A stretch of 26,706 nt of DNA from a virus, in the IMG/VR virus record IMGVR_UViG_3300032323_002089, positions 1 to 26,706 of that record; one strand, 5' to 3'. Below the pieces are notes generated by a model. That model had not been told where the DNA came from and ran no database searches. It was given only the letters and a program-made list of their open reading frames with translations. Below, in pieces: positions 1 to 26,673 of this stretch. The position numbers and the translations under genes are program-made. Position 1 is the stretch's first letter; each line of letters begins with the position of its first letter.

Positions 1-1018
1 GCGTCTCGCGGAGATCCATCGCGGCCGTCAGCGCGGCGGATTCGGCTTCGAGCGCCTTCGCCTCGGAGACGATGGAGGCGCGTTTCTCCTGGAGGTCGCA
101 GTCGCTGTTGATCTGCTCGGCTCGTTCGATCCTTGCGCGAATCGCGCCAAGGTCTATCGGCTCGCCCGGGTGGGCCATGTTGCGGAAGGCTAGCAACTTC
201 TCTACGCCTTCGCGTTCCGCTTTGTCGGCGGCCATGGTCGCGGCTGCGATGCGTCCAGCGAACTTATCGCGGACGGCTTGGATCTCCGCATCCATGTCAG
301 CCTGAAGCGCCTGAACGACGCCCGGTAGTTCGGCGCACAGCTTCTCGGCACTCTGCCGCGCCAGATTCGCCGCCTGCTCTGCGCTGGAACGCTTCCGCTT
401 CTCGACTTCGAGCGCGGCGTTGTAGCGCGACGCCTCTTCCATCTCGGCGGCGAGCTTTGCGACGTTCACACGGGCGGGCGGGTCTGCTGGCGCCTGGATG
501 CCTTCGGCCTGCGCCCGCAACACCTTCGCGCGCCGGTTGACGTCGGTCCGCTTCTCGAAGTCGGCCTTGTTCGCGGCTTCGAGCGCGTCGAGATCCACGT
601 CTACCTTCGCGATGACCTTGATCTCTTCGTACTGCTCCCGGGGCTTCTTCTTTGAGAAGGCGAGCGGGTCGAACGCGAGACGACCGATGAGCGCGTCGAG
701 CATCTTCTGCGGAGACGGGTAGACCGCGCCGTCCTTGTTCCGCACAACCATAGTGCCGCCGTGGCTGCCGGTGGCCGTGAACTTGCGCTCGACCACCATG
801 TCGCCAAGGTCGAGCCTGATCATGGCCTTGTCGGCACCCTTGCGGATGGGCACGGACTGAATCTCTTCCTTGCCGCCCAAGGCCCACCAAATCGCGTCCA
901 GTACGGAGCTCTTGCCGTGACCGTTCCGTCCGGTTACCTGCACCAGCGGGCCTTTCGGCGTGATGCGCACGGCCTTCAGCTTCTTTACGTTTTCTGCTTC
1001 GAGTTTAACGATTACCAT
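1..1018 (-). CDS. SMC/SbcC-like ATPase, N-terminal part (runs off left edge)
   Basis: The frame is open from the ATG at 1018 to the left edge, giving about 339 residues without a stop. The N-terminus has the AAA_23/SMC pattern: a short beta-strand start (MVIVKLEAENVKKLKAV), then a Walker A motif GRNGHGKS at residues 30-37 followed by SVLDAIWWAL. After about residue 150 the sequence becomes charged and alanine-rich with heptad character, as expected for the coiled coil of SMC, RecN or SbcC proteins. The Walker B half must lie beyond the window. The gene follows the RecE-like nuclease by 5 bases, so the two are likely co-transcribed. I infer a role in phage DNA recombination or end processing; whether a SbcD-like phosphoesterase partner follows cannot be seen. 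The family call (ATPase with coiled coil) is firm, the exact subfamily is not. Confidence 0.85.
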   Translation of the reverse strand, partial: MVIVKLEAENVKKLKAVRITPKGPLVQVTGRNGHGKSSVLDAIWWALGGKEEIQSVPIRKGADKAMIRLDLGDMVVERKFTATGSHGGTMVVRNKDGAVYPSPQKMLDALIGRLAFDPLAFSKKKPREQYEEIKVIAKVDVDLDALEAANKADFEKRTDVNRRAKVLRAQAEGIQAPADPPARVNVAKLAAEMEEASRYNAALEVEKRKRSSAEQAANLARQSAEKLCAELPGVVQALQADMDAEIQAVRDKFAGRIAAATMAADKAEREGVEKLLAFRNMAHPGEPIDLGAIRARIERAEQINSDCDLQEKRASIVSEAKALEAESAALTAAMDLRET

Positions 1019-1023
1019 GTCAC

Positions 1024-2025
1024 TTACGCACTCCATGCCAACTGTTTGAAATCCTCGTCGACTAGCGGGTCAATGAAGGCCCTTTGCCTCCAGGGACGGT
1101 CGCCAAAATGCCTCTCGCAAGTGGCGAAACGCTCCAGCATTCCCTCGACTTCCACTCGCGCGTTTTCCCACGCCATCAGTAACTGGCCCTGCACGGTCGG
1201 ACGGAACGTGCGAATGCGAACCTCGTGCGGCGGCGCGCTCTCGACGAACGCAAAGACGTAGTCGCGGCAATCCTTCATGGGCGCGCGCTCACCCTTGCCG
1301 TCGACGATTGACGCGACCAGCGAGTAGAAGTACGCGCGCTGGCGATAGCGAAAGTTCCAGATCGCCCGGGTGACGGATTCGTCGAAGCCGTAGCCCTCGC
1401 CGGCTGTGATCGTCTTCGGATCCAGAATGAACTTCTCGGCGAAGAAGTCGGGCCGAATCTTGAGCCGTAGCCCGGTCTTCGGGTCCGTGGCGAAGATGGA
1501 TAGTTCCCGCTTGCCCGGCTGGCTCAACAGGTGCTCCATCTGCGGCTCATTGCGAAGCGCCCGGGCAGCGGTCTCGACGCGCTCCCACGTCTCCGCGGTG
1601 AAGAGCGTCTTGCCCTCGTTCGCCTTCGCGTGCTCAGCCGCGAGCACGTCGGCGATCGGCACCGTGGGGTCAATCTCGTGGACTTGCCGGATCAGATCCT
1701 TTTTGAGCTTGCCCGGCTTCACGTCGCGCGACTTCAGCCAGCCGTTGACATCTTCGACGGTGCGGAGGGTGCCTTCCGGCAACTCCAGTTCCCGGTAGTA
1801 CCGCTTCTCAAACTCTGCCGGCTCCAGGATCGCCGTGTGCAGCGCCTGGCCGAACACGAGCGCACGGGAAGGCTCTTCTGGCTCGCGGTCCGGATTCCGG
1901 TGCAAGTGCCAGTAGCGGAGCGGGGAAACGACAAAGTCGTCGAGTGCGCTGGAACTGAGGCCGGGGGCTTTCTGGTACTCGTCGAAGGGCATCCCGTCGA
2001 TGACTTCGAAGGTGGCGGCGCTCAT
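1024..2025 (-). CDS. RecE-like PD-(D/E)XK exonuclease (exodeoxyribonuclease VIII type)
   Basis: This 333-aa protein resembles the putative exodeoxyribonuclease VIII family found in phage recombination modules. It opens with a typical start (DEYQKAPGLSSSALDDF, near residues 15-31), then FGQALHTAILEP with the conserved histidine near residue 63. The nuclease core shows IRPDFF (Asp near 193), LDPKT (Asp 202, Lys 204) and the helix RYRQRAYFY near 227-234, matching the D...DxK...QxxxY signature. The expected role is 5'-to-3' resection of double-stranded ends for single-strand annealing. Its ATG overlaps the previous stop (ATGA at 2022-2025), so translation is probably coupled. It sits directly before an SMC-like ATPase; a RecT-like annealing protein is not visible and may lie off the left edge. 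Confidence 0.85.
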   Translation of the reverse strand: MSAATFEVIDGMPFDEYQKAPGLSSSALDDFVVSPLRYWHLHRNPDREPEEPSRALVFGQALHTAILEPAEFEKRYYRELELPEGTLRTVEDVNGWLKSRDVKPGKLKKDLIRQVHEIDPTVPIADVLAAEHAKANEGKTLFTAETWERVETAARALRNEPQMEHLLSQPGKRELSIFATDPKTGLRLKIRPDFFAEKFILDPKTITAGEGYGFDESVTRAIWNFRYRQRAYFYSLVASIVDGKGERAPMKDCRDYVFAFVESAPPHEVRIRTFRPTVQGQLLMAWENARVEVEGMLERFATCERHFGDRPWRQRAFIDPLVDEDFKQLAWSA

Positions 2026-4829: not shown

Positions 4830-5039
4830 CTACCAAGCCTCCTTGCACTCCTTGAGTCGGTACGAATTCTCGATCCATTGACCGCCGCGCGTGGTGCAAT
4901 CGGCTTCCATGCGACGGTCTTCTGCGGCGGCCCAGACAATCAGACCGAGAGCAATTGCCACGACAGCAACCACTACGCAGATTGCGAATCCCAACAACGC
5001 TGCGTTTTGCGTTTGCTTTTCTTCGTCTTCGTGCTGCAT
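4830..5039 (-). CDS. small single-pass membrane protein with two conserved-looking cysteines, 69 aa
   Basis: AAAGGAGG stands 4 bases before the ATG at 5039, the best ribosome site of the early block. The protein has a charged start (MQHEDEEKQTQN), one membrane helix (ALLGFAICVVVAVVAIALGL, about residues 14-33) and a short exported or cytoplasmic tail with DCTTRGGQW and LKECKEAW. The C...GGxW...EC spacing could form a disulfide if the tail is outside. The family is not recognised. It lies just downstream of the PEP-CTERM gene, separated by a strong hairpin. Confidence 0.75.
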   Translation of the reverse strand: MQHEDEEKQTQNAALLGFAICVVVAVVAIALGLIVWAAAEDRRMEADCTTRGGQWIENSYRLKECKEAW

Positions 5040-5055
5040 GTTTCCTCCTTTGTTT

Positions 5056-5077
5056 GTGGGCCGGTAGACCGGCCCAC
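5056..5077 (-). repeat. perfect 9-bp stem-loop between PEP-CTERM gene and 69-aa gene
   Basis: GTGGGCCGG and CCGGCCCAC form a perfect 9-bp stem with a 4-base loop. No U-tract follows on either strand, so it is not a standard intrinsic terminator. It lies immediately ahead of the ribosome site of the 69-aa gene and could stabilise or end the PEP-CTERM transcript. Confidence 0.6.
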
Positions 5078-5090
5078 CCGTTGAGACTGG

Positions 5091-5585
5091 CTACCGCTTC
5101 GCGGCCCGGTAGCACCCAAAAGCCAGAAGCAGCCCGGCCATATGGAGCGTGCTTGGCTCTGGGACCGCCTCATACTTCACCGAGGCCGAAGCGTTGAACG
5201 GCAGCGGGTCCGAGCCCGGCCCGCCCGTGACCAGCGCGGAGAAGTTGGGCAGGCCCGCCACGTCCACCCAATCGCCCACGGCGGTGCAAGCGCCAAGCGT
5301 CTGGGTTGTGCCATTGGTGGCACCCGTCGCGGTGCATTCGAGGGCGGGAAAGCCAGCAGCGGCCAGCGAGAACAGCACGGCCATCGAAGGGCCAGCCGAG
5401 GAGTTGTCCTGGAACGAGCCCGACAGCACGAGCCGCGCACGAGCCGCAGCGGGGTCACCGGGGCAGGCGAACAGTTGAGAGCCCGCCGTGGCGCTATCGA
5501 CCACCGTCGATTGCGCGGGCGTGCACTGCACGATGCCAGCCTGCAACGCGCTGGCCAGCAAAACGGACGACAAAATAAGCTTCAT
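5091..5585 (-). CDS. secreted PEP-CTERM protein
   Basis: I start the gene at the ATG at 5585, with AAAGGA 5 bases upstream; the longer upstream frame is rejected because a hairpin terminator lies inside it. The 164-aa product has a Sec signal peptide (MKLILSSVLLASALQAG), a Ser/Thr/Gly-rich body with several cysteines, and a C-terminal sorting signal: VPEPST at about 141-146, a short hydrophobic stretch (LHMAGLLLAFG) and a basic end (RAAKR). PEP-CTERM tails are known to be cleaved by exosortase in bacteria that make exopolysaccharide or biofilm matrix. The product should therefore be exported and processed by the host. No enzymatic domain is recognised. Such a gene inside phage early genes looks like a lysogenic-conversion cargo gene. 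Confidence 0.88.
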   Translation of the reverse strand: MKLILSSVLLASALQAGIVQCTPAQSTVVDSATAGSQLFACPGDPAAARARLVLSGSFQDNSSAGPSMAVLFSLAAAGFPALECTATGATNGTTQTLGACTAVGDWVDVAGLPNFSALVTGGPGSDPLPFNASASVKYEAVPEPSTLHMAGLLLAFGCYRAAKR

Positions 5586-5602
5586 CTTTTCCTTTCGAGT
5601 CC

Positions 5603-5632
5603 AAAAATCGGGGCGGGTGCGTATCCCGCCCC
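5603..5632 (-). terminator. intrinsic terminator or attenuator ahead of the PEP-CTERM gene
   Basis: On the minus strand GGGGCGGG, a 7-base loop and CCCGCCCC form a perfect 8-bp GC stem, followed by ATTTTT (T-run 5607-5603). It ends only 18 bases before the PEP-CTERM start codon, so it would stop read-through from the 80-aa gene unless overcome. This arrangement resembles an attenuator. Confidence 0.75.
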
Positions 5633-5696
5633 AGGAACACCAATCCGTGCCCCAAGAGCGCGGCCCCGAGTGAGAGAGTGAGCCGCGCACCTGAAG

Positions 5697-5721
5697 GCCA
5701 GCCCACGAGGGGAGGGCTGGC
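5697..5721 (-). repeat. 8-bp stem-loop in the PEP-CTERM leader
   Basis: GCCAGCCC and GGGCTGGC form a perfect stem with a 9-base loop, with no U-tract. It lies just after the 80-aa gene and about 65 bases before the terminator hairpin, so the 145-base leader carries two consecutive hairpins. Confidence 0.5.
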
Positions 5722-5730
5722 TCCAAAGAC

Positions 5731-5973
5731 TCACGCGGCGTCGCGCAGCACCGACTGCACGCGACGCCGCGGCGAGCGACCGTCGACGTAGCAGGCGATG
5801 GCTTCGACCGGCGCACCGGCCTTGAAGCGGCTGACGATCTCGTATTCGCTGATCGGGGAGGCACGATTCGCGCCCCGATCTCGTGATGCTCCTGCGACTT
5901 GCGGCATGGGCGCTTGCTGGGCTCCGACCCTTGCGCCACGCTTAGACAGGATGCTGATTACGTTGTTTTTCAT
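5731..5973 (-). CDS. hypothetical basic protein, 80 aa
   Basis: GGAG lies 8 bases before the ATG at 5973. The protein starts MKNNVISILSKRGARVG, has a low-complexity middle, and ends with a helical ISEYEIVSRFKAGAPVEAIA then RSPRRRVQSVLRDAA. The 'EIVSRFKAGAPVEAIA' helix followed by a basic helix is faintly helix-turn-helix-like and could bind DNA, but I do not recognise a family. It is downstream of the RHH gene in the leftward early transcript. Confidence 0.65.
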   Translation of the reverse strand: MKNNVISILSKRGARVGAQQAPMPQVAGASRDRGANRASPISEYEIVSRFKAGAPVEAIACYVDGRSPRRRVQSVLRDAA

Positions 5974-6025: not shown

Positions 6026-6109
6026 CTACGCGGCCTTGGCTGCGAGGAGCGCGAGTCCGAGTGCGGTCATAATGGCGAGCCGGACAAGCTGACGCTCTTC
6101 GGCGCTCAC
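6026..6109 (-). CDS. 27-aa hydrophobic micro-ORF coupled to the RHH gene
   Basis: A GTG at 6109 overlaps the RHH stop as GTGA, and the frame ends with TAG at 6026-6028. The product is about half a hydrophobic helix (RQLVRLAIMTALGLALLAAK). The exact overlap supports translational coupling, but the frame is short enough to be chance. Confidence 0.4.
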   Translation of the reverse strand: MSAEERQLVRLAIMTALGLALLAAKAA

Positions 6110-6264
6110 TGCCGAGTCCCCGCGCTCAGATAGTTCTGAAGCGCATCCACGGCAAGCTCTGAAATCTCACGGCGTTCCAGTGCGGCTGACGCCTTGACTC
6201 GCGCCCAGAGGTCTTCTGGTACAGTAATTTGTACTTTCTTTTCTGTTACCGCTTGCTGTTCCAT
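6106..6264 (-). CDS. ribbon-helix-helix (CopG/Arc-type) regulator, 52 aa
   Basis: The chosen start is ATG 6264 (MEQQAVTEKKVQITVPEDLW); an in-frame ATG at 6291 lies within the operator array. The strand KVQITVPE, helix DLWARVKASAAL and helix EISELAVDALQNYL match the beta-alpha-alpha RHH fold, which dimerises and reads DNA with the paired strand. There is no ribosome site, and a good promoter places transcription start within a few bases of the ATG, suggesting a leaderless message. It faces a second RHH gene across three palindromic operators, so it probably represses its own promoter and sets the leftward early transcript. Confidence 0.8.
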   Translation of the reverse strand: MEQQAVTEKKVQITVPEDLWARVKASAALERREISELAVDALQNYLSAGTRQ

Positions 6265-6272
6265 GTGAACCA

Positions 6273-6301
6273 AGTATGCGTCATGACGCATTTGGCGTCA
6301 A
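6273..6301 (-). promoter_or_regulatory. leftward promoter overlapping operators 1 and 2
   Basis: On the minus strand TTGACG (6301-6296) is followed after exactly 17 bases by CATACT (6278-6273), a 5/6 and 4/6 match to sigma-70 boxes. The predicted start near 6266 almost coincides with the RHH ATG at 6264. The -35 box lies within operator 2 and the -10 box abuts operator 1, so bound repressor would block polymerase. Confidence 0.65.
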
Positions 6302-6323
6302 GACGAATTTTGCGTCTTGACGC
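6278..6323. promoter_or_regulatory. three 12-bp palindromic operators at 17-bp period
   Basis: GCGTCATGACGC (6278-6289), GCGTCAAGACGA (6295-6306) and GCGTCTTGACGC (6312-6323) begin exactly 17 bases apart with AT-rich 5-base spacers. The first and third are palindromic or near-palindromic; sites 2 and 3 also form an 11-bp inverted repeat with each other. The array fills the space between two divergent RHH genes and overlaps the leftward promoter. Even phasing suits cooperative RHH dimers. Confidence 0.8.
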
Positions 6324-6347
6324 AACGAGGTGGGTAGGATTTTTCCT

Positions 6348-6800
6348 ATGTCGGCAGAAATACGATACACGGTCAGATTTGATCCAGCCGAGCACGAGCG
6401 GTTCCGCGTGCTCTACCCGGCGCGCGGCTACCGGACGCTACAAGACGCAATCCTTGCCGCGCTACGCCAACACCTCGACGCGACCCAGGACGTACTACAC
6501 CCACAATCTGACGGGGTGCAATCGACTCCAGGCCACGACTCGCGGCACAATGCCGGAGTGCCACCGGAGATCCGGCGAGCACTGGACGCCTTGACGGCGG
6601 CGATAGTCGCGTATGCCAGTCGAACGGTTCCCGGGGAACAAGATTCCAATGGTCCGCACGCCGATCCCGCAACAGCGCTTGCGGATGCTGAGAGACTTGC
6701 GGCAGAAGCAGCGCGAATTGCGGCTACTGGAAAGCCAGATAGCGGCGGAGGTGCTGGCGGAGATCGACGTGGGCGCCCCGGTAGAGGTGGGAAAGCTTAG
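6348..6800 (+). CDS. divergent RHH-like regulator with Gly/Ala-rich tail, 150 aa
   Basis: This is one of only two plus-strand genes. The start chosen is the ATG at 6348 (MSAEIRYTVRFDPAEHERF), 8 bases after AGGA; the in-frame codon at 6330 lies too close to the operators. RYTVRF, a helix and TLQDAILAALRQHL resemble the RHH beta-alpha-alpha fold. The remaining ~100 residues are Ala/Gly/Arg-rich and low in complexity, ending DRRGRPGRGGKA. It is transcribed away from the 52-aa RHH gene over a shared operator array, so a two-repressor switch is plausible. RHH assignment here is weaker than for its partner. Confidence 0.7.
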   Translation: MSAEIRYTVRFDPAEHERFRVLYPARGYRTLQDAILAALRQHLDATQDVLHPQSDGVQSTPGHDSRHNAGVPPEIRRALDALTAAIVAYASRTVPGEQDSNGPHADPATALADAERLAAEAARIAATGKPDSGGGAGGDRRGRPGRGGKA

Positions 6801-6868: not shown

Positions 6869-6960
6869 TGGCGGAGAGTGGAGGATTTGAACCCCCGCAT
6901 CCCGCGAAGGATGGCTACCGGTTAGCAACCGGACGCCTTACCGGACTCGGCCAACTCTCC
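6869..6960 (-). tRNA. tRNA-Ser(GCT)
   Basis: A 92-base class II tRNA with 7-bp acceptor stem GGAGAGT/ACTCTCC, encoded CCA, anticodon loop TTGCTAA (anticodon GCT) and a long variable arm with CATCC/GGATG. One mismatch is seen at the base of the anticodon stem. It would read AGC and AGU serine codons. Confidence 0.9.
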
Positions 6961-6965
6961 AAAAG

Positions 6966-7052
6966 TGGCGGAAGGTGAAGGAATCGAACCCTATGGCTTG
7001 CGACCATCCCCGGTTTTCGAGACCGGTTGCCGACCATTCAGCGGCACCTTCC
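6966..7052 (-). tRNA. tRNA-Ser(CGA)
   Basis: An 87-base class II tRNA with acceptor GGAAGGT/ACCTTCC, encoded CCA, perfect anticodon stem CCGGT/ACCGG and loop CTCGAAA (anticodon CGA). The variable arm pairs ATGG/CCAT. The T stem has weak pairs. It reads UCG. Confidence 0.9.
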
Positions 7053-7069
7053 AAGGTTGAAAAGTGAAA

Positions 7070-7145
7070 TGGTGGAGTGGCTGAGATTTGAACTCAGACC
7101 CTTCGGGTGCGAACCGAGAGCTCTACCAAGTTGAGCTACCACCCC
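7070..7145 (-). tRNA. tRNA-Ala(CGC)
   Basis: A 76-base tRNA with acceptor GGGGTGG/CCACTCC, encoded CCA and anticodon loop TTCGCAC (anticodon CGC). The acceptor stem carries G3:U70, the main alanine identity element, which supports the call. It reads GCG. Confidence 0.9.
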
Positions 7146-7183
7146 AAGGTGGTTTTATGCTCGGCTGGATGATCGAGAGGAAG

Positions 7184-7258
7184 TGGAGCCGCAGGCAGGA
7201 CTTGAACCCGCAACCGACCGCTTACGAAGCGGCCGCTCTACCATTGAGCTACTGCGGC
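7184..7258 (-). tRNA. tRNA-Thr(CGT)
   Basis: A 75-base tRNA with acceptor GCCGCAG/CTGCGGC, discriminator T, encoded CCA and anticodon loop TTCGTAA (anticodon CGT) on a good stem. It reads ACG. It is the first tRNA of the cluster after the late terminator. Confidence 0.9.
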
Positions 7259-7377: not shown

Positions 7378-10300
7378 CTACTTGAGCCTGCCGCCGCGCA
7401 ACGTGCCGCCGCGCATGATCGTTCCGGTTGCGCTGCCGCCACCACCGCCAGGCGCGATTGTGACACTGAACGATCCGCTTGCCGAACCTACGGTGTCGGT
7501 CACTCGCACTGTAGCCGCGCAGGTGCCAGCCGTTGGAGTCGCCCCGGAAAGCACGCCATTGCTGGCCAGCGTGAGCCCGCAAGCCGCAAAGCTCCCACTG
7601 GTTGTGTCCCACGTAGCCGCGCCAGTGACGGAAGCGGTGAACGTGAAGGTGTAGGGGGTGCCAGCCGTTCCGCCTGGCAGGGGTGATGTGCTGCTGATCG
7701 TCGGCGGTGACGGCGGGGCTCCGTCTTGTACCACGTCAATAGCCCCAGCGCCGATGCTGGCGCATGTCAGGGTGTTGTCTCCCGTCACGACCGCCACGTC
7801 GTTGCAGACCACGGTGCCGCCTAAGCGGACATCGTAGGTGCCAGCCGCAAGGCCAGAGGCCGTGTACCGCGTTGTTCCTGCCGTGGTGACCGCAGGGACC
7901 GAGGTCGCGAGCGTGGTCCCGCGAAGAAACATGACCGTTGCGCCGGCCATTGTTGCGCCGGTCCATGAGGAGTTCGGATTGAGGGCGGTGGGGCTGACTG
8001 CCGCCGCGCTCGTTCCGATCCGATGGATCGTCAGGTTCTCCAGCGATGTGGCGGACGAAGAGCACGAGCCAGAGCCAGGGCAGGCGCGCACTCGAAACGT
8101 CGTAGCCGGTCCACCGAGCGGTGAACTGTAGGTGCTGGTGTAGTGCATCGTGATGGGCGAGAGGAACGCCGTATCAATGGTCTTGGTCCCAGCCGCGTTG
8201 GCCGAGGCCACTGTTGCGCAGCCGCCACCGCCGCAGGCCGTCGAGCCCTCGCCCGCGTTGCCGCTGTTGACGTAGTGGTGGTACGTGTTCAGTTCTCGCC
8301 CGCTCGACGTGTCCAGCAGGTCGTAGATGAACAGGTATTGCTGTTCACCCGAGGCCTTGTGGTGGATGATGTGCCGCTCGTTGCGGGACACCGCCGAGCC
8401 CTGCGCGGACCACATAGGCGCAAGATCGAGCGACACGGCCATGTAGTCGCTTGATGTGCGCCCTTCGCGGTTCGGATGCCCAGCCCAGCGCGGCGTGGCG
8501 CTTACGTGGTGCTCGATAGATGACGCGCCGTACAGGTCCACGTATATGCCGCGATTGCGATTCAGTCCGGGGATGTGGAAGATGTTGCGCGTTTCATAGT
8601 CGGTGTTGTAGGCGCCCACCGCGCCCGCGTTTGCCGCGTTGAAATTGTCGGAGGCCATCAATAGATCGCCGCCGACGTTGATACTGTACTCGCCCGCGCG
8701 GCTGGCCGACTTATCGCCGATGAACCCGCCGCCGTCGATATCGATGGCCGTGTCTGTGTTAGACGGGTACGCCGTATTGCTCCAGCCCGTCCGCGAGATC
8801 ACGCGAGAGTAGCCAGTTGATCCGGACGGAGGGCACGATAGCGAGCCCTGGGTGGCGCAGGGGGTCAGGTCTACATCGCGGAAAATGAACTGCGTCGGCC
8901 CGCTGGTGTAATCGACGGGCGCAATGCGGGTATCCGTCATCAGGAACATTTCGGCGGCGTATAGGGGGTTCGGCACCGGCATGGATCGCACGTTGTTATA
9001 CCAGTGCATTGCCTTGCCGGATTCGGCGTGCGTTGGATCGAGGTAGGACGCCGCGATGAAGCCGGTGGCCCGACCCGATCCAAGGTCGAACATATTGATA
9101 GCGGCATCACCACCCCAGGGCACGATCAAATTGAGTCGTGAAGCGTTTGACCCAGGAGCCCACATGAACCTGTGGCCGGTGCCGAAGTAATCCAGGAACG
9201 GAGCGCCAGTGAGATCGGGGCCGCTCACGAAGCTGTTACGGAAAAGGGATACCGTCATCGGAACCGCGCGAGTCATGCGGGCGGGGTGGTAGTTGCCGCC
9301 GCCAGACGTGAATCCGGTCCAGTAGGCAGCCAGCCAAGGCCACGTGTAATCGAAGAAGTACACGGAGTTCTCAGACAGCATTCGGATAGCATCCGCGCTC
9401 TCATCCGCTAACACCGCTCCGATTGCCATCTTACTCAGCCCCTTCTGTACCACCATATTGCTGATGTTGCTCACGCCCGAGCCTGTCGTGGTGTTTCCGC
9501 CGGCCGTGGGGAAGTAAAGCGGGTGCGCCAGCGGGCTGCCGACGTGGTGATTCATGAAAGCCACGGCCCCACAGCGGCCCGTGGTCCACGCCGGAATTTT
9601 CGAGACGGCGCCTGACGGATTCCAGCCACCCGATACGGTGGCGCTTGTGTCGCTCGCGATGGAAACCACGTAGGCGTACTTCGCCTCGGTGCCATCGTAC
9701 GAGGTGCTTTGATCACGAATCATGTCTCCCACGGCAAGCTGAGAAAGAAAGCTCGTGCCCGTGCCGTTCATGGTGCCGTTCGCGCGCACGGACACCCCAG
9801 ACGAAGACACCGTGCCGGTAAGGTTGGTGCGGGTGGGCATCGTGCAGTCGCGCGTGAATGCGCCGTTCAGCATCTTGGCTGCGAACGTGGAGCGCTCGCC
9901 CGTGGTCATCTCTGAGCGAATCGCTGTGTACGCCTTCGCCGCGCTCCAGAGATAAAACCCGATGTAGTCGGACTCTGGGACTCCGCAGTTGCTCGTGGTG
10001 TCAATGCAGAATCCGCTTTGAAACGAGGTGTCGGCCTTGTTCAGTGAAGCCTTGGCCACCGTGAGAGCGGCGGTGTCAGCGCGGTTGATGTACCATGCCA
10101 GCGCGAACCGCGCCGCCTCCTCTAACCGAAAGTCGAACATGGGAAAAGCCGTCGCCGCCTCTACCGCCGCCCGGCTGGTCTGGACGCTGATCCATGCCGG
10201 GTTTCCGCCATGCGCCTGTCCAGACACGGTGAGGTCCGAATTGTTGTAAGTGCCATCGGTGACGTTCGCCGTGGTCCACGTGATCGTCGTAGATGTCGGC

Positions 10301-10914
10301 ACCGTCGCCACGGTGAAGAACGCGCTTGTGCTGGTGCTGGCCGTGGGGCAATTCAGATCGGCATCGCTCGCCGAGTACACGCATATCTTATTCCCAACCG
10401 CGTACCCGTGAGCAGACGTGAATGTCGCTGTTGCCGTGTTGCCAGAATCCACGATGCTGGTGAGTTTGCCGTTGTGGACAGCCGCCGCGAAGTGAATCAG
10501 GTTTGTGTTCTCGCCCAGCATGAATCTGGGGTGGGCGGTAAGTGTGTAGTCTGCGACCTTGCCAGCCACCTGCACGCCACCGGACCACACGAACGGGTTA
10601 CTGTCGCCGTTCGACCACGCGCCAGAACCAGCTACATCAACGTCTGAAGTGTCCGTGATCGTGAACGTGGTAGACGTGGGCGTGGCCTTCACCTTGCGAA
10701 GTCCGTTCGCCGCGAGGTTGCCGGCCACGTTCGCGATGCGGATGACATCGCCCACCGCGAAGTTATGCGCCGCCGCACACGTGATCGAGATGGGCGTCGT
10801 GTTTGATGCGCCCGGCGTCACAATCCGGCATTGCCGGTTGTTCTGCTGGCGAAGCTGCACTACGGTCTGCGAAAACCCCAGCGCGGCAAACAGGAGAAGA
10901 ATCAGGATTTTCAT
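7378..10914 (-). CDS. secreted heparinase II/III-like protein with Ig-like C-terminus, 1178 aa
   Basis: The protein opens with a Sec signal peptide (MKILILLLFAALGFSQ). Next come two or three related beta modules of the type AHNFAVGDVIRIAN...TTFTI (roughly residues 45-100, 150-230 and near 370-430). A helical toroid-like part includes EEAARFALAWYINRAD and GGGNYHPARMTRAV. A later part, ISRTGWSN then GEYSINVGGDLLMASDNF and HVSATPRW, resembles the C-terminal half of heparinase II/III-type polysaccharide lyases. It ends in a putative Ig-like domain (PPSPPTISSTSPLPGG, then GTPYTFTFTAS) and a Gly-rich basic tail. Lyase action on host polysaccharide is plausible, but catalytic residues could not be fixed by eye. 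It is the last gene of the late operon. Confidence 0.75.
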   Translation of the reverse strand: MKILILLLFAALGFSQTVVQLRQQNNRQCRIVTPGASNTTPISITCAAAHNFAVGDVIRIANVAGNLAANGLRKVKATPTSTTFTITDTSDVDVAGSGAWSNGDSNPFVWSGGVQVAGKVADYTLTAHPRFMLGENTNLIHFAAAVHNGKLTSIVDSGNTATATFTSAHGYAVGNKICVYSASDADLNCPTASTSTSAFFTVATVPTSTTITWTTANVTDGTYNNSDLTVSGQAHGGNPAWISVQTSRAAVEAATAFPMFDFRLEEAARFALAWYINRADTAALTVAKASLNKADTSFQSGFCIDTTSNCGVPESDYIGFYLWSAAKAYTAIRSEMTTGERSTFAAKMLNGAFTRDCTMPTRTNLTGTVSSSGVSVRANGTMNGTGTSFLSQLAVGDMIRDQSTSYDGTEAKYAYVVSIASDTSATVSGGWNPSGAVSKIPAWTTGRCGAVAFMNHHVGSPLAHPLYFPTAGGNTTTGSGVSNISNMVVQKGLSKMAIGAVLADESADAIRMLSENSVYFFDYTWPWLAAYWTGFTSGGGNYHPARMTRAVPMTVSLFRNSFVSGPDLTGAPFLDYFGTGHRFMWAPGSNASRLNLIVPWGGDAAINMFDLGSGRATGFIAASYLDPTHAESGKAMHWYNNVRSMPVPNPLYAAEMFLMTDTRIAPVDYTSGPTQFIFRDVDLTPCATQGSLSCPPSGSTGYSRVISRTGWSNTAYPSNTDTAIDIDGGGFIGDKSASRAGEYSINVGGDLLMASDNFNAANAGAVGAYNTDYETRNIFHIPGLNRNRGIYVDLYGASSIEHHVSATPRWAGHPNREGRTSSDYMAVSLDLAPMWSAQGSAVSRNERHIIHHKASGEQQYLFIYDLLDTSSGRELNTYHHYVNSGNAGEGSTACGGGGCATVASANAAGTKTIDTAFLSPITMHYTSTYSSPLGGPATTFRVRACPGSGSCSSSATSLENLTIHRIGTSAAAVSPTALNPNSSWTGATMAGATVMFLRGTTLATSVPAVTTAGTTRYTASGLAAGTYDVRLGGTVVCNDVAVVTGDNTLTCASIGAGAIDVVQDGAPPSPPTISSTSPLPGGTAGTPYTFTFTASVTGAATWDTTSGSFAACGLTLASNGVLSGATPTAGTCAATVRVTDTVGSASGSFSVTIAPGGGGGSATGTIMRGGTLRGGRLK

Positions 10915-10917
10915 GAG

Positions 10918-12393
10918 TTACCGTGCCGGTGACACTTGAATCCCGTAGTAATCCCACAGTGCAACCGTTGCTGTTCCATCTGTGGATTGCACGGACATCG
11001 CCGGATTGAAAGCGTAATTGTTTGGGATGGCCGCGATGGTGATATCGCAGCCTGACGCGCAGGCCGTGCGCTCGGTGGAGTAGGAGCCGCCGTCCACCTT
11101 CAGCGCGAACCTGTAGGTGCCAGCCACGAGCGTGCGGATGCGCACATGAACTACCGAGTTGGCCGTGGGCGCGACGGTCGTATCGAAGGTGTTGCATGTG
11201 CTATTGAGGCAGGCCACGAACATCCAGTTCGTGTCGGTCCCCGCCACGAACCGGAGGAACAACCCGTTCGTGGGGGTCGCCACGATGTCACCGTTACGGA
11301 AGAACCCGACGCGGTAACCGCTGGCTGCTGTCCGCTGCGGCTGGAACACAAAATGGGCCTCGAAGATTTCGGTGTTGATGTCTGGCAGGATAGTGCCATA
11401 CCCGTCAACATTGAGGGCGATGTAGCCCAGGGCGTTGGTGACCGAGTGCGAATACGTACATGGGATGCGCGCGTTGGTGATGTTGTTCGTGCCAGCGCTT
11501 GTCGAGATTGTTCCGCCTACCGCAACCCATCCGAGAGAGCCAATCTGCTGCGAGTTGGGCGAGCCCGCGCAGAACTCATCCACCAGCGGGGGCGGGGTGC
11601 CAGGGTCAACGGAAACGCTGCCACCACTAGGGGCGGTTCTCCATTGGTTATCGCCGTACAGGACTGTCGTGTTGTCCGCCGTGCCCGTACCAAGCCGCGC
11701 AGGGGGGACCGTGCCGGTAAGCTGTGTTGCCACGATGCTCTTATTCGTCAACGTCTGCGTGGCCGTAAGCGTCACCGCCGTGTCGCTGCCGGCGGGGAAC
11801 GTGGTCGTGGTGCCATCCTGCCAGCGGATGATGCGCTCGGTGCAGCCCGGCGAGTTCACCGACCGCTCGATAGCGGCGCTACCCGTCCAAAAGTACTGCG
11901 CGACCGTTACGCTCCCCGACGTCGCGCACAAGGCCAGCGACGGGAAGCCGGTGGGCAGTACCACCGTGCGCGGCGTGCTGTCCTGCGTGAACTCGAAGCT
12001 CAGCAGATCGCCCGCCGATGCCCCGCTCAGCGTCGAAGACGTGACATTGCTCGTGAGCGTCTGCGTCCACTGTTGAACGGCGGAGGATCGCGTGTATGTC
12101 GGCGTGGCAGAGTGGGTCACCGCCGTACGCGTGATCGAAGTTCCACCGCCGCCGCCGAGTCGCGTCCAGGTGTTCGTGCTGGTGCAGCCATACCAGTTCA
12201 GGCCGGGAGTCTCGTCGGTATCGAAGAATACCTCGCCAGCGGTGCAAGTGGCCGGAAGTGTGGTCCCCATTGGCGGCATCATTTGCCCGAGCGCGCGAAG
12301 TCTGCCGTAGATGCTGCGGTCTCCGTAGATGTCGCGCTGAGCGAGCGAGATGGACGCAAAGAGCAGTCCAGCGAGAAGAAGTCGAATGTTCAT
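10918..12393 (-). CDS. tail-fibre-like protein with Sec signal peptide, 491 aa
   Basis: The start is ATG 12393, giving signal peptide MNIRLLLAGLLFASISLAQ; AAGGAG lies about 12 bases upstream. After it comes CTAGEVFFDTDETPGLNWYG and CTSTNTWTRL. The middle has phage-fibre phrasing (TATQTLTNKSIVATQLTG, ARLGTGTADNTTVLYGDNQW). The C-terminal ~210 residues (from LVDEFCAGSPNSQQIGSLGW) look like a lectin-type beta-sandwich, with FEAHFVFQP and HVRIRTLVAGTYRFALKVDG. A receptor-binding or surface-binding role is likely. A signal peptide is unexpected for a fibre assembled in the cytoplasm. It stops 3 bases before the lyase-like gene. Confidence 0.75.
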   Translation of the reverse strand: MNIRLLLAGLLFASISLAQRDIYGDRSIYGRLRALGQMMPPMGTTLPATCTAGEVFFDTDETPGLNWYGCTSTNTWTRLGGGGGTSITRTAVTHSATPTYTRSSAVQQWTQTLTSNVTSSTLSGASAGDLLSFEFTQDSTPRTVVLPTGFPSLALCATSGSVTVAQYFWTGSAAIERSVNSPGCTERIIRWQDGTTTTFPAGSDTAVTLTATQTLTNKSIVATQLTGTVPPARLGTGTADNTTVLYGDNQWRTAPSGGSVSVDPGTPPPLVDEFCAGSPNSQQIGSLGWVAVGGTISTSAGTNNITNARIPCTYSHSVTNALGYIALNVDGYGTILPDINTEIFEAHFVFQPQRTAASGYRVGFFRNGDIVATPTNGLFLRFVAGTDTNWMFVACLNSTCNTFDTTVAPTANSVVHVRIRTLVAGTYRFALKVDGGSYSTERTACASGCDITIAAIPNNYAFNPAMSVQSTDGTATVALWDYYGIQVSPAR

Positions 12394-12409: not shown

Positions 12410-13189
12410 TTAGCGGCCAACGATGCAATGCCCGATGGCTGAACCGACGAAAGCGAAAGTCGTGATATTGGAACTGGTAGCGGTTGCGGTTGAGTACCCG
12501 ATGCGCTGGCCCGTGTCGCTGTAGCAGCGGGCAAATACGGTTCCGTTGAGGTTGTGGGTAATCGCCAGCGAAGCGCCCGAGATTGCAGCGCCCGCCGTTT
12601 GCGTCACGAGGCTGCCGGATGGCAGTGTGTCGCCCACTACGACTGGATCGGAAGAGATGATGATGTTGCCCGTCTGCGCTGACGAGAAAGTGAGGACCAG
12701 GGCATACGTGGAAGGGTTGCAGGTTACGGTATCCGGCTCAACGGCGAGCCCACCCACCCAGACGGCGTAGGCCAGCGAGCAAGTATTTAGGTTGTGCGCC
12801 GCGGCGGCGATAGTCCACGTCGTCGCGGCCGGCGATATGGTCGCAGTGTAGGTGCCGACCACCGCCCCGCTTGCTCCGCCGCTGCCTGCCACCCCAGCGC
12901 GGCAAACCACATTTGTTCGCAGGCGGGAGAAGTTGGCGGTTACCGAAGATGTTGTGCGGTCGGTAAGAAACGGGATTCGTTGAGTGATCGGCGAAAGATC
13001 GCCAGTAACGTGCCCTCCGCTGAATCCGGTGCCACTGTCGCATGAAACGGACACAGAGCCGAGCGTGGCGCTATCGAGTCCAAGCGAAGAGATATCAATA
13101 ACCATTGCGGAAATCGGGCCGGCCGCTTCCTGCTGCACCTGTGCCGAGATAGGCAGGCACACGAGTAGCGCAATGAGAATCTTGGTCAT
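12410..13189 (-). CDS. secreted beta-rich protein of unknown function, 259 aa
   Basis: AAGGAG lies 8 bases before the ATG at 13189. A signal peptide (MTKILIALLVCLPISAQ) precedes a Ser/Thr/Gly-rich beta protein. It includes VGTYTATISPAATTWTIAAA near the middle and a C-terminal block SGASLAITHNLNGTVFARCY followed by ITTFAFVGSAIGHCIVG. The 'TTWTIAAAAHNLNTC' part resembles the beta modules of the 1178-aa neighbour. No named domain is recognised. It starts the run of three exported proteins and is probably translated with the fibre-like gene (16-base gap). Confidence 0.72.
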   Translation of the reverse strand: MTKILIALLVCLPISAQVQQEAAGPISAMVIDISSLGLDSATLGSVSVSCDSGTGFSGGHVTGDLSPITQRIPFLTDRTTSSVTANFSRLRTNVVCRAGVAGSGGASGAVVGTYTATISPAATTWTIAAAAHNLNTCSLAYAVWVGGLAVEPDTVTCNPSTYALVLTFSSAQTGNIIISSDPVVVGDTLPSGSLVTQTAGAAISGASLAITHNLNGTVFARCYSDTGQRIGYSTATATSSNITTFAFVGSAIGHCIVGR

Positions 13190-14590: not shown

Positions 14591-14992
14591 TTACCACGCG
14601 ATTGTCTTTCCGGTCATGTCATAGCGCCAGCGGGCGCGAGTGCCGCGGGCGTCCACGTGGAATCGGCCGTAGCCGAAGCCCACGCCGCCCTCGCGGAATA
14701 CGGGGATCATGTTCACCGCCGCGTACAGTTCAGCCGGCCGCACACTCATCACGAGGATGTCAGCCGCGTCTCCCTTGAGGTGCCGCGAGTTTAAGGCACC
14801 AAGCACACTGGGGCTTGCGTTGTGCTTGGCGCACCGGCACCCGCTGAGGATCTGAACCGCTCCCACGATGTTGCGGAGCGCCTGGAGGCCATCCACGAGC
14901 GCCGGCGACACGTCGCCAGGCTGGAGGCCGAATCCGCAGCCGCACTTGCAGGCAAACTCGGAGCGGCTAAAGTTGGCGGAAATATCACCCAC
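14591..14992 (-). CDS. endolysin, peptidase M15A family
   Basis: The 133-aa protein has SRSEFACKCGCG at the N-terminus, SGCRCAKHN near 50-58, SRHLKGDAAD near 69-78 and GRFHVD near 110-114. This matches the M15A (peptidase M15_3) layout, with His 71, Asp 78 and His 112 as zinc ligands. It should cut peptide cross-links of peptidoglycan to lyse the host. The start is GTG 14992 with GAGG about 7 bases upstream, overlapping the previous gene by 8 bases. No signal peptide is present, so a holin is needed for release. Confidence 0.88.
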   Translation of the reverse strand: MGDISANFSRSEFACKCGCGFGLQPGDVSPALVDGLQALRNIVGAVQILSGCRCAKHNASPSVLGALNSRHLKGDAADILVMSVRPAELYAAVNMIPVFREGGVGFGYGRFHVDARGTRARWRYDMTGKTIAW

Positions 14993-15194: not shown

Positions 15195-15515
15195 TTACGC
15201 GCTCCTCTTGATCGAAGTCTTGTAGATGATCTCCTGCGATGCAAACGAGAAGACCGCGTTGACCACGAACTGCATCCAAGCGGAAGCCGAAGGCACCGTG
15301 ATCGTGAGCACGCCACCAGCGTCCACGCTCCCGCTCCATGCGACCGTGAGCCCGGCTGAAGTGGCAACGGCGATGATGCGCGAGAGCCAGCGGTTTAGGT
15401 CGTCGCTGTGCTCGTTGACCCAGGGCAAGAGGCTGGACCGCTTGGCGCATTCGATGAGCCGCGCCGCGATGTAGGCGATGGCCACTTGTTCGGTTAAAGC
15501 ATCGGTATGCATCAT
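15195..15515 (-). CDS. holin-like protein, 106 aa
   Basis: Two ATG codons in tandem (15515, 15512) follow GGAGGT and overlap the previous stop. The protein has a helical start (ALTEQVAIAYIAARLIECAK), a hydrophobic segment (LSRIIAVATSAGLTVAW, about residues 45-61) and a second one (AWMQFVVNAVFSFASQEIIY, about residues 79-98), ending basic. Small size, two possible membrane helices and placement two genes before the endolysin support a holin; similarity to a named family was not established. Confidence 0.55.
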   Translation of the reverse strand: MMHTDALTEQVAIAYIAARLIECAKRSSLLPWVNEHSDDLNRWLSRIIAVATSAGLTVAWSGSVDAGGVLTITVPSASAWMQFVVNAVFSFASQEIIYKTSIKRSA

Positions 15516-21115: not shown

Positions 21116-24100
21116 TTAGCGGAGATTGCGGGTTACCTCGGCCATGGCGTAGTCAATCGTGTCGCGGCTCGCGGGGCCGTAGAAATTGAGCGTGATGTTG
21201 CCACGCGCAATGCTGCCATCCCCGCGCAATAGCGGGTTGGTTTCGTTGCGCACCACGTCAATGAGCGTGCCGAGTCGCTCCCACACGTCATGGATGCGCC
21301 AAGCGTGGTCGTTGAGTAGCTGCATTTCTAGGCCGCGAATCACGGGTAGTTCAGCGAGGAAAAGGTTCTGCGCGCGCTCGACCAACTCTTTCAGGTGGAT
21401 CTGCGAGAACCGAGTCTCGTGCTCGATCAGGTCAAGGGATTTGTTCATGCCGGCCATCTGGAAATTGCCGACGATAGAGGAAACTGCCGTAGCTACGCCA
21501 GAGATGGCATTGACGATGCCGAGCACGCCAGACGAGGCCGAAGACGCAGCGCCGCCGCTTGAGGGCGCGCTGCTCAAGTCCCCGGCGGTCTGCGTGGCGT
21601 TGGCCGCTGCGCCAACAGCGGAGCCTCCGCCAGCGGTGAAGATGTCCTTGAGTTCCTTGCCGATCTCCTTGGCCTGCCCCAGGACGCCGCCTAGCCCCTT
21701 GCCTGAGATGAGGTCCGACAGCACGCCCGTGATGAACTCGCTAATGGCCTTGGTCGCGGGCTCGATAAACAGGCTGGTCGTCGCCTCGCCAAGCGACTTC
21801 AGCAGATTCTTGCCTTTCTCTCCCCAGGACATGTCGCCATCCCAAAGCGACTTGCCGATGTCCTGCGCAAAGTTCGTGATGACCGTGGAAACAGAGTTGC
21901 GGAAATCCCCCCAGCGGTTCGCCTGCTCGTCGAGCCCCTTGGACGTGGACTTGTTCGCCTGACCCATGAGCGAGTCAATCTCGGCGGGGATCTCTTCGCC
22001 CGCCGCCTTCGCCGCCTTGATCGCCGCGTCGGCCCATTGGCCAAATGCTTGCTCAAGCTCGTAAGCCGTCGCCTTGCCGCTGTCGCGGATGCGCTCGTAG
22101 TCCTTGAGGTGCTGATCCGCCATCCTTTTGAGGTCGGCGGTGCTGGTGACCCCAAGCCGTTTGTACGACTCGACAAGCTCATCGTTCGTCTTGATCGCGG
22201 CGCGCACCGAGGCAGGGATGCGATCGGTCAACGGGACGATGATATCGACCGTCTTCAGCGACTCCTGCCGCATCCGCTCGTGAGACTTGCTGTAGTCGAG
22301 CGAAAGCTCAAGCGTGCTCTGCTTTAGCCGCTCGCCCGCGTCGCGCCATTTGTTGTACGCTTCCTCGTTGTCTCGCGCCTGCTTCTTGGCCGTCTCCGAC
22401 TCGCGGCCAAGCCGCCTCAGCGCTTCCTCGTGCGCCTTCGTTCCTTGCTCTGCCGCAAGGATGGCCTTCATTTCCTTCTCGACCGCTTCAGCGAAGCTCA
22501 GCGTGTGCTTGCCCGTGGCCTTGGCCTGCGTGCCAACGCCAGCAATCGCAGCGGCGAGATCCTTGTTGCCCTTTACGGCAACCTTCACGGTGCCCGCGCC
22601 CTTGTCGAGCACGCCGAAGGAAATGCTGTTCTCCTTTGTCGCCTTCTTTAGCGCGTCAATATACTCGGTTACCGACTTGCCAGCCGCGTCTACCTGCACC
22701 TGCTGAACGCCGATTTGCCGATTGTGCTGAGCAATCGCATTCTCAAGAACCTTGATCGTGGTGGCTTGATCTTCGTTCGCTTTCTTGCCAGCCTGAAGCG
22801 CCGTTTCGAGCTTGCGGATTTCGGCGTCCAGTTGGCCAATCTCGGAGATGGCTTTGTAGATCGCCCAGCCGGCCACGGCAGCGCCGAAAGCAATGGCCAA
22901 CGGGCCAGCCGCGGCGAGCGCCGCGGTCAAGCCAGCGCCACCAGCGACGCCAATGGAGGCCGTCAGCGAAGTCACCGCGGCGCCTACTGTCGAGAACGCC
23001 TGAATCATGCCGCCAACAGCCAGCACGACGGGGCCGAACGCGGCCGCCGCCGCGGCAAGGCTGATAGCCACCGTTTTGATCGTCGGGTCAAGACTCGCAA
23101 ACCACTTCGCCGCATCGCCCAGCGCGGCCACGAGCGGATGGATGGATTGCAACAGGGCGTTGACGGTCGGCAGTAGCGCGGTGCCAATCTCGATGGCCGT
23201 CACTTTGAGCTCAGCGGTCACGCGCTCGAATGCGCGCGCCGAACTCTTCTCGATCTCATCGAAGGCAGCGCCCGCGGCGCCCGTCGAGTTGCGCAGCGAG
23301 TCAAGGTGGCCGCGCGCGATCACGGTTTTGTCGCCCGTCAGGCCGAGCACCGCGCCCAAGCCTTCCACGCGCCCGATGGCCTTGGTGAGAACTTCGACGT
23401 TGCCGCCCGCCGCCACCTGGAGCGTTTCTAGTGCGCCGTGCAGCCCTCTTGCGCCGATGAGTGCCTGGCCGCTCGAAAAGCCCGTCTGCGCCAACAGTGC
23501 GTTCATGTCCTTGTTGGGCGTGATGATGCCCACCATGGCCGAACGCAACGAGGTCATCGCCTCGGAAACTGAATAGCCCTGCGAGGTGAGCGTGGCCGCT
23601 GCCGCCAACAGATCCTTGAAGCCGATGCCAAGCTGAGCGGCAAGCGGGGTAGCAATCGAAATCGAAGACGCCAACTGCTCAAAGCTGAACTTGCCAAGGT
23701 TCACGCTCTGAAACATCGCGTCCGAGACTTCGCGCGCCTTGCCAAACTCGAGGCCGTAGGAGTTGATGATGCTGGTGAGCCCATCAACGGCCACTTTCGT
23801 GTCGGTGACGCCAGCGACCGCGGCCTTTGAGGCGACGGCCAAGAACTCCACCGCATTCTCTTTGGGCACGCCAGCGGAGATGGCCTCGTATAGCGCCGAT
23901 GCAGCCTTGGTCGCGTCGATGCCCATCGAGCGAGAGAGCGCCAGCACGTTCCCGGAAAGCTTCTCGAACTCGGCATTGGTAGAGGTGCCGAGCAAGGAAG
24001 TGACCTTGCGCATCTCAAGTTCAAAATCCTTGGCGAACGACGTCACCGCCGCGCCCGCGCCCACGAGCGGGAGCGTGATGCCGGCCGTCATGGCCGTGCC

Positions 24101-24256
24101 GAGCGTGGTCAGGTTGCTGCCGAGACGTTCGAAGCCAGAGAACGCTTTTTGGGCGTCCCGATCAATGGTGTTGAGTTGCTGTGAGACGGTGCCCATAGCA
24201 CGCTCAAAGCCATCGATCTTGGCTCCGACTTCGACAAAGATTGCAGGTAGCGCCAT
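21116..24256 (-). CDS. tail tape measure protein, 1046 aa
   Basis: The N-terminal part has the TP901-type tape measure pattern: FERLGSNLTTLGTAMTAGIT, then FAKDFELEMRKVTSLLGTST and ALYEAISAGVPKENAVEF, then SFEQLASSISIATPLAAQLG. A hydrophobic middle (about residues 400-470) and long coiled coils (about 480-720) follow, with a Gly/Ala/Ser-rich segment near 900-960. It sets tail length and helps DNA entry. A tail of about 1000 residues of tape suggests roughly 150 nm by the usual rule, an estimate only. It follows the tail chaperone by 3 bases. Confidence 0.93.
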   Translation of the reverse strand: MALPAIFVEVGAKIDGFERAMGTVSQQLNTIDRDAQKAFSGFERLGSNLTTLGTAMTAGITLPLVGAGAAVTSFAKDFELEMRKVTSLLGTSTNAEFEKLSGNVLALSRSMGIDATKAASALYEAISAGVPKENAVEFLAVASKAAVAGVTDTKVAVDGLTSIINSYGLEFGKAREVSDAMFQSVNLGKFSFEQLASSISIATPLAAQLGIGFKDLLAAAATLTSQGYSVSEAMTSLRSAMVGIITPNKDMNALLAQTGFSSGQALIGARGLHGALETLQVAAGGNVEVLTKAIGRVEGLGAVLGLTGDKTVIARGHLDSLRNSTGAAGAAFDEIEKSSARAFERVTAELKVTAIEIGTALLPTVNALLQSIHPLVAALGDAAKWFASLDPTIKTVAISLAAAAAAFGPVVLAVGGMIQAFSTVGAAVTSLTASIGVAGGAGLTAALAAAGPLAIAFGAAVAGWAIYKAISEIGQLDAEIRKLETALQAGKKANEDQATTIKVLENAIAQHNRQIGVQQVQVDAAGKSVTEYIDALKKATKENSISFGVLDKGAGTVKVAVKGNKDLAAAIAGVGTQAKATGKHTLSFAEAVEKEMKAILAAEQGTKAHEEALRRLGRESETAKKQARDNEEAYNKWRDAGERLKQSTLELSLDYSKSHERMRQESLKTVDIIVPLTDRIPASVRAAIKTNDELVESYKRLGVTSTADLKRMADQHLKDYERIRDSGKATAYELEQAFGQWADAAIKAAKAAGEEIPAEIDSLMGQANKSTSKGLDEQANRWGDFRNSVSTVITNFAQDIGKSLWDGDMSWGEKGKNLLKSLGEATTSLFIEPATKAISEFITGVLSDLISGKGLGGVLGQAKEIGKELKDIFTAGGGSAVGAAANATQTAGDLSSAPSSGGAASSASSGVLGIVNAISGVATAVSSIVGNFQMAGMNKSLDLIEHETRFSQIHLKELVERAQNLFLAELPVIRGLEMQLLNDHAWRIHDVWERLGTLIDVVRNETNPLLRGDGSIARGNITLNFYGPASRDTIDYAMAEVTRNLR

Positions 24257-26340: not shown

Positions 26341-26673
26341 CTAGGCGGTGTATTCAGAGGCGAGCAAAACAAGTGATCTGCGCTGCTGCGTGGGGTCTTC
26401 GCAATCGAGGATGTTTAGCCGCCGCGTGCCCCACTGAATGAAGTCTTCGCGCTGCGGGGTGAAACTACCGAGCGGGCTATCGATCAAAACGCGAAACTTG
26501 GCCTCCGCGAACCGCTGCGCCGCAATCTGCAACTCGCGGCCCGTCAGGGCCTCCATCTGCGCCCACGCCGCGCCGATCTCGACGTTCGTTACCACGTCCT
26601 CGCCGCTCGCGTTTTGTGACGCGACGGTCGGGCGGTAGAACGTCAAACGAGTACGGCGCTGGCCTGCTGGCAT
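26341..26673 (-). CDS. head-tail joining protein (gp16/SPP1-type, H_T_join), 110 aa
   Basis: GGAG lies about 8 bases before the ATG at 26673. RRTRLTFYRPTVASQNASGE, then AAWAQMEALTGRELQIAAQR and GTRRLNILDCEDP match the phage head-tail joining family: a beta-barrel with 'W..v....g.e......'. It closes the portal side after DNA packaging. Confidence 0.85.
   Translation of the reverse strand: MPAGQRRTRLTFYRPTVASQNASGEDVVTNVEIGAAWAQMEALTGRELQIAAQRFAEAKFRVLIDSPLGSFTPQREDFIQWGTRRLNILDCEDPTQQRRSLVLLASEYTA

Follow-up and report, generated by a model that had tools for sequence, protein, structure and literature searches.

The window, that is, the whole 26.7-kb stretch of DNA analysed here, is a linear metagenomic virus fragment with its major genes nearly all on the minus strand, among them a gene for a PEP-CTERM protein (P0001; Table 1). 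To the left of this gene lie genes for exonuclease VIII and an SbcC-like ATPase, and to the right those for an Arc-like ribbon-helix-helix (RHH) protein, three tRNAs, the endolysin, the tape measure protein and the head closure protein. The earlier note, made from the letters alone, had placed a PEP-CTERM arrangement between the RHH and recombination genes of a phage. Its coordinates are exact, the signal, VPEPST, hydrophobic run and basic end are all present, the position given for the gene between those for RHH and recombination proteins is in essence correct, and the contig is genuinely that of a phage, with phage genes on both sides of the locus and not on one side only.

Table 1. Positions of the PEP-CTERM gene, its parts and its neighbours in the window, and of the exosortase pair found in another virus record
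Feature	Position	Strand	Details
AAA/SbcC-like ATPase	2..1036	minus	phrog_1499; AAA_23; runs off the contig
Exonuclease VIII-like recombination nuclease	1024..2025	minus	phrog_412, E 3.7e-53; DUF3799, 58 bits
69-aa protein, next downstream gene	4830..5039	minus	One hydrophobic stretch, with a AAAGGAGG site
GC-rich 9-bp hairpin between PEP-CTERM stop and next gene	5055..5079 (approximate bounds)	minus	z -3.6
PEP-CTERM protein gene	5091..5585	minus	ATG at 5585, stop at 5091; 164 aa
PEP-CTERM tail, residues 141-164	5094..5165	minus	VPEPST, hydrophobic run, RAAKR
Sec-type N-terminus, residues 1-17	5535..5585	minus	MKLILSSVLLASALQAG; by hydropathy and form
Terminator-like hairpin upstream of PEP-CTERM gene	5609..5633	minus	9-bp stem, then ATTTTTGG
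80-aa ORF, upstream neighbour of PEP-CTERM gene	5731..5973	minus	
Arc-like ribbon-helix-helix protein, probable regulator	6106..6291	minus	phrog_6506, E 1.7e-4; RHH_5, E 7.5e-4, below gathering
Endolysin, peptidase M15 type	14591..14992	minus	
Tail tape measure protein	21116..24256	minus	
Head closure protein Hc1	26341..26673	minus	phrog_25
Exosortase and PEP-CTERM pair of another phage (G021)	54,443-55,617 of that record (L167:10444-11618)	minus	

The PEP-CTERM gene and its neighbourhood

The purine-rich AAAGGAA directly 5' of the ATG constitutes a ribosome-binding site. A longer version with a GTG start (282 aa, 5939-5091) was rejected in favour of the ATG at 5585, which has this site; the longer frame would run into the 5731-5973 ORF and leave the signal peptide in the interior of the protein. 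The signal peptide, predicted from hydropathy and form only, has a 19-residue mean hydropathy of up to 1.8. The protein terminates in VPEPSTLHMAGLLLAFGCYRAAKR, and its tail reads VPEPST-LHMAGLLLAFGCY-RAAKR, so that all three PEP-CTERM parts, including a hydrophobic run of 13 residues, stand at the extreme C-terminus. The body is rich in Ser, Thr, Gly and Ala and holds no further membrane helices, with residues 63-88 mildly hydrophobic. A single-sequence AlphaFold2 model, only moderately trustworthy (pLDDT 64), has strands throughout the body, nine in all, followed by a C-terminal helix (144-163) that corresponds to the tail; as modelled, the protein would thus combine a beta domain and a membrane anchor. 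The fold search with this model returned weak beta-sandwich/lectin-like matches, none with E <0.001, which were not used as evidence.

Hairpins on both sides bracket the gene like a cassette, and the 145-nt gap that separates it from its upstream neighbour (5586-5730) folds unusually strongly (z -3.2). The 69-aa product of the next downstream gene has no family match above cut-off among the Pfam, PHROG and padloc models, and the padloc defence-system models gave no match. Further upstream, two small regulator-like genes start divergently at 6291-6330, namely the Arc-like gene on the minus strand and a plus-strand gene (6330-6800) with a weak, non-significant MobC-like match; the pair, upstream of the PEP-CTERM gene, may form a regulatory switch. 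A cluster of tRNA genes (Ser-gct, Ala-cgc, Thr-cgt; 6869-7258, minus) adjoins the probable early region. Lastly, four more proteins, encoded in the tail-to-lysis region on the minus strand (7378-10914, 10918-12393, 12410-13189 and 15512-16261), have Sec-signal-like N-termini (MKILILLLFAALGFSQ, MNIRLLLAGLLFASISLAQ, MTKILIALLVCLPISAQ and MTARILLLLAAPALAQ). Similar starts occur in the relative L002 (at 8013 and 8851) and in another phage, G021, where one precedes tail-fibre-like sequence (L185:18170). Since virions are assembled in the cytoplasm, exported proteins are unexpected inside a tail module.

The fragment is an incomplete genome with no phrog_1 integrase match and no exosortase above cut-off, and hence gives no grounds for calling the phage temperate or its sorting self-sufficient. 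As a linear metagenomic fragment, it might also be suspected of being an assembly artefact or of including host DNA. This explanation is largely refuted and scarcely credible, given the phage genes on both flanks, the nearly uniform strand of the major genes, the third-position GC of the PEP-CTERM gene (0.81, within the 0.69-0.83 of the other phage genes), and the circular closure of other phages that bear the same tag.

Model scores and chance expectation of the tail

The support of the hidden Markov models for the tail is borderline. In a six-frame search, PF07589 reaches 21.0 bits in the open frame (match 5115-5168) and passes its cut-off of 20.7, whereas on the 164-aa protein it scores 19.0 bits (E 0.0015). 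Likewise, TIGR02595, the model suggested beforehand as a check, gives 13.6 bits on the isolated tail against a cut-off of 16 and no match in the search of the fragment itself. The arrangement of the tail is rare. A tripartite end occurs in one of the 259 open frames of the window, that of the PEP-CTERM gene, and in none of the 1482 open frames across 23 related phage loci; after shuffling of residues, 0.025 ends of this kind are obtained per window when any PEP is allowed, and a VPEP[S/T] tail appeared in 0 of 3000 shuffled windows. The VPEPST tail together with the Sec-type N-terminus is therefore beyond chance expectation.

These figures bear on the explanation that the product is another kind of membrane protein, for instance a lysis or spanin-like factor, whose tail is merely PEP-CTERM-like. 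The borderline model scores would suit it, as would the existence of small viral proteins with an N-terminal lipobox and a C-terminal membrane helix, such as a 60-aa protein of the phage G029. However, the combination of VPEPST, hydrophobic run and basic end is specific, as the shuffled windows indicate, and the endolysin gene is 9 kb distant; a look-alike is accordingly very improbable.

Relatives of the protein and of the phage

No homologue of the 164-aa protein was found in INPHARED, IMG/VR, GTDB contigs, plasmids or related phages, and its body has no family match in profile searches. Because the body is without relatives in any of these collections, conservation offers no evidence of selection on it. 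As for the phage, neither exonuclease VIII nor the 1178-aa protein used as query retrieved related phages, and a further protein of the window, used to search plasmids and phages, gave no match either. The 441-aa tail protein retrieved two close viral contigs (53-57% identity) and 21 distant ones, and had no relative in any bacterial genome searched. The PEP-CTERM tail is absent from all 23 of these relatives, the close ones included (Pfam search; most are short fragments). The window proteins may have a somewhat acidobacterial flavour.

PEP-CTERM tails in other virus records

IMG/VR was scanned with two codon patterns for VPEPST[L/F] and the frames were then read; the counts are lower bounds. 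More than half of the VPEPST pattern matches were discarded as spurious frames or for want of a PEP-CTERM-like end. After the removal of spurious frames, at least 19 further records retained a tail with a hydrophobic run. Of 22 records searched with PF07589, among them the window, 16 passed the cut-off, hence at least 15 other virus records do so; it was passed by none of the 23 unselected relatives of the window phage and none of 14 control genomes. The bodies of these viral proteins are mostly unrelated to each other. Several of the carriers are closed genomes, as judged by terminal direct overlaps of 123 bp (G018), 127 bp (G019), 135 bp (G021) and 160 bp (G029), and this circular closure removes host contamination as a general explanation. 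G015 has a terminal overlap of only 34 bp and is perhaps closed, attachment-site repeats being also conceivable.

The neighbours of the PEP-CTERM genes vary: a Cas4-like exonuclease and a helicase in G019, a helicase in G033, a PurZ-like synthetase in G028, a ribonucleotide reductase in G031, and an integrase in G021 and G029. In G028, probably a modified-base phage, the protein (L180:3661-4236, minus) belongs to the MHFG family (NF038119, 191.5 bits, cut-off 100) and its gene sits between those for the PurZ-like synthetase and a metallophosphoesterase. The 60-aa protein of G029, a 96-kb record (L172:9231-9413, minus), is encoded about 0.6 kb downstream of the integrase. Its two sorting tags, the lipobox-like N-terminus (LFLAGC) and the PEP-CTERM tail, make up nearly all of it. 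With the same tag in many unrelated phages, phages seem to use the bacterial surface-sorting route.

With regard to the earlier note, which named homologues in other phages as possible support and envisaged a prophage that changes the host surface, the window protein itself has no homologues, but other phages, closed genomes included, do carry PEP-CTERM genes; similarly, integrase-proximal PEP-CTERM genes in other phages fit a role in lysogens, while the fragment itself has no phrog_1 match.

An exosortase encoded by a phage

One carrier, G021 (IMGVR_UViG_3300020061_000007, a closed genome of 61,727 bp that also has genes for terminase, portal, major head protein and integrase), encodes an exosortase next to its PEP-CTERM gene. 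The latter codes for 220 aa (PF07589, 35.1 bits), its stop overlaps the start of the exosortase gene, and the pair is flanked by the integrase and an HNH endonuclease. The exosortase (P0002, 171 aa) matches PF09721 with 124.5 bits (cut-off 25.7) and TIGR04178 with 68 bits (cut-off 23), and stays below the TIGR02602 cut-off (90.8 of 105.55). It is a short form, without the N-terminal part of the model (match from position 106). The invariant motifs of EpsH are Cys-x-Gly, Asn-x-x-Arg and His-x-x-x-Gly (Haft et al. 2006; PMC1569441), and P0002 carries all three, as CAG, NVVR and HQGAG. No similar exosortase was found in INPHARED (tblastn) and no close relative in IMG/VR (pattern search), so that the case for a phage exosortase rests on one genome. 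No other PEP-CTERM record has an exosortase above cut-off, and most of these phages would therefore rely on the host enzyme.

Placement beside the integrase

A phrog_1 integrase is present in 6 of 20 PEP-CTERM records, and in four of these six (G015, G018, G021 and G029) the midpoints of the two genes are 1.3-1.4 kb apart. Under uniform placement, so many genes within 1.5 kb would have a P of 1e-4 with the records treated as circular and of 0.002 with them treated as linear (3/6), figures to be read with a threshold picked after the data were seen and with few records. With G018 left out as a check, since its ORF has an odd 70-residue tail, P becomes 0.001 (circular) and 0.02 (linear). The placement is thus suggestive rather than proof, and it fits lysogenic-conversion cargo or a role in lysogens.

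This recurrence has to be weighed against the explanation that a host PEP-CTERM gene was acquired by chance and, expressed or not, is useless to the phage. Bacterial hosts have many PEP-CTERM genes without sequence relationship to each other (PMC1569441), the window protein has an orphan body, and the gene is missing from the closest phage relatives, which are fragments. However, the tag recurs in unrelated phages, next to the integrase with a frequency above that of uniform placement, the frame, start and ribosome-binding site of the window gene are intact, and its third-position GC matches that of the other phage genes. A useless passenger is, on these grounds, unlikely.

Alternatively, the phage protein could flood the host exosortase and block the display of host PEP-CTERM proteins, leaving an exposed surface or dispersed flocs during infection. 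The probable early region of the window and the G019 and G033 copies that adjoin replication or recombination genes are compatible with such a decoy, and some viral examples are almost pure tag (60 aa in G029, 84 aa in G023). Nonetheless, the window protein has a 120-residue body, apparently folded according to the model, which a decoy does not need, and an exosortase of its own, as in G021, would counter saturation. We regard saturation as quite improbable.

Proposed function

The explanation that we favour, and consider reasonably probable, is that the window gene is phage cargo for a secreted surface protein that is processed by a host exosortase and displayed on the envelope, where it most likely alters the surface of the infected cell. 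In the model proposed for bacteria, the protein is exported by Sec and held by its tail helix until the exosortase cleaves it at PEP and transfers it further (Haft et al., PMC1569441). By analogy with this PEP-CTERM/EpsH pathway, the window protein would cross the inner membrane by Sec and be anchored there by the helix at its C-terminus, the PEP motif facing the periplasm; an exosortase supplied by the host would cut at PEP and hand the protein on, so that it would finally sit on the outer membrane or beyond it. Its beta-rich body may then give the cell, infected or lysogenic, an altered surface, most probably in the phage's favour against competing phages or through cell aggregation. Superinfection exclusion would be the single most likely benefit and the most economical one, with effects on aggregation second, although this part of the proposal is speculative and rather doubtful.

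More generally, and tentatively, phages, temperate and possibly lytic, may have repeatedly recruited the exosortase route for placing their own proteins on the host surface, some of them bringing a dedicated exosortase with its one substrate as a two-gene conversion cassette by the integrase, and others, the window phage included, relying on the host enzyme; we hold this possible, if somewhat short of probable. If phages do use this route, prophages could steer the surface properties of bacteria in soil and sludge, and a phage exosortase with a single substrate would be a minimal system for exosortase specificity.

Comparison with known systems

Work on PEP-CTERM proteins has dealt with them as components of the host envelope and of the floc matrix. 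In Zoogloea, for example, they are needed for floc formation (PMC9012009). Within the open-access literature, nothing was found that treats phage-encoded PEP-CTERM proteins or exosortases as a strategy, the sole relevant remark being that Yellowstone viral contigs contain 13 TIGR03118-family proteins with an exosortase-interaction domain, listed as gene transfers (PMC11003980). These are likewise putative exosortase substrates in virus contigs, but they form one named family and were reported with no enzyme and no discussion of a phage strategy (PMC11003980); the window protein does not match the TIGR03118-type exosortase-interaction model. The MHFG family is phage-borne in G028, with a body unrelated to that of the window protein.

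The surface genes that temperate phages carry as morons resemble the present cases in being cargo near the integrase in G015, G018, G021 and G029, and in the window in being set off by hairpins. They differ with regard to the exosortase route, and the window gene lies upstream of recombination genes in a fragment without an integrase match. Lastly, with the bacterial PEP-CTERM/exosortase system (EpsH, XrtA; PMC1569441) the window protein shares the N-terminal signal, an orphan body, the PEP motif, the membrane stretch and the basic end, and G021 shares an enzyme of the EpsH type that bears C-x-G, N-x-x-R and H-x-x-x-G. Unlike their bacterial counterparts, these genes are encoded by phages, occur once or twice in a phage where a bacterial genome has many, and lie away from exopolysaccharide clusters, and the tail of the window protein scores at the cut-off.
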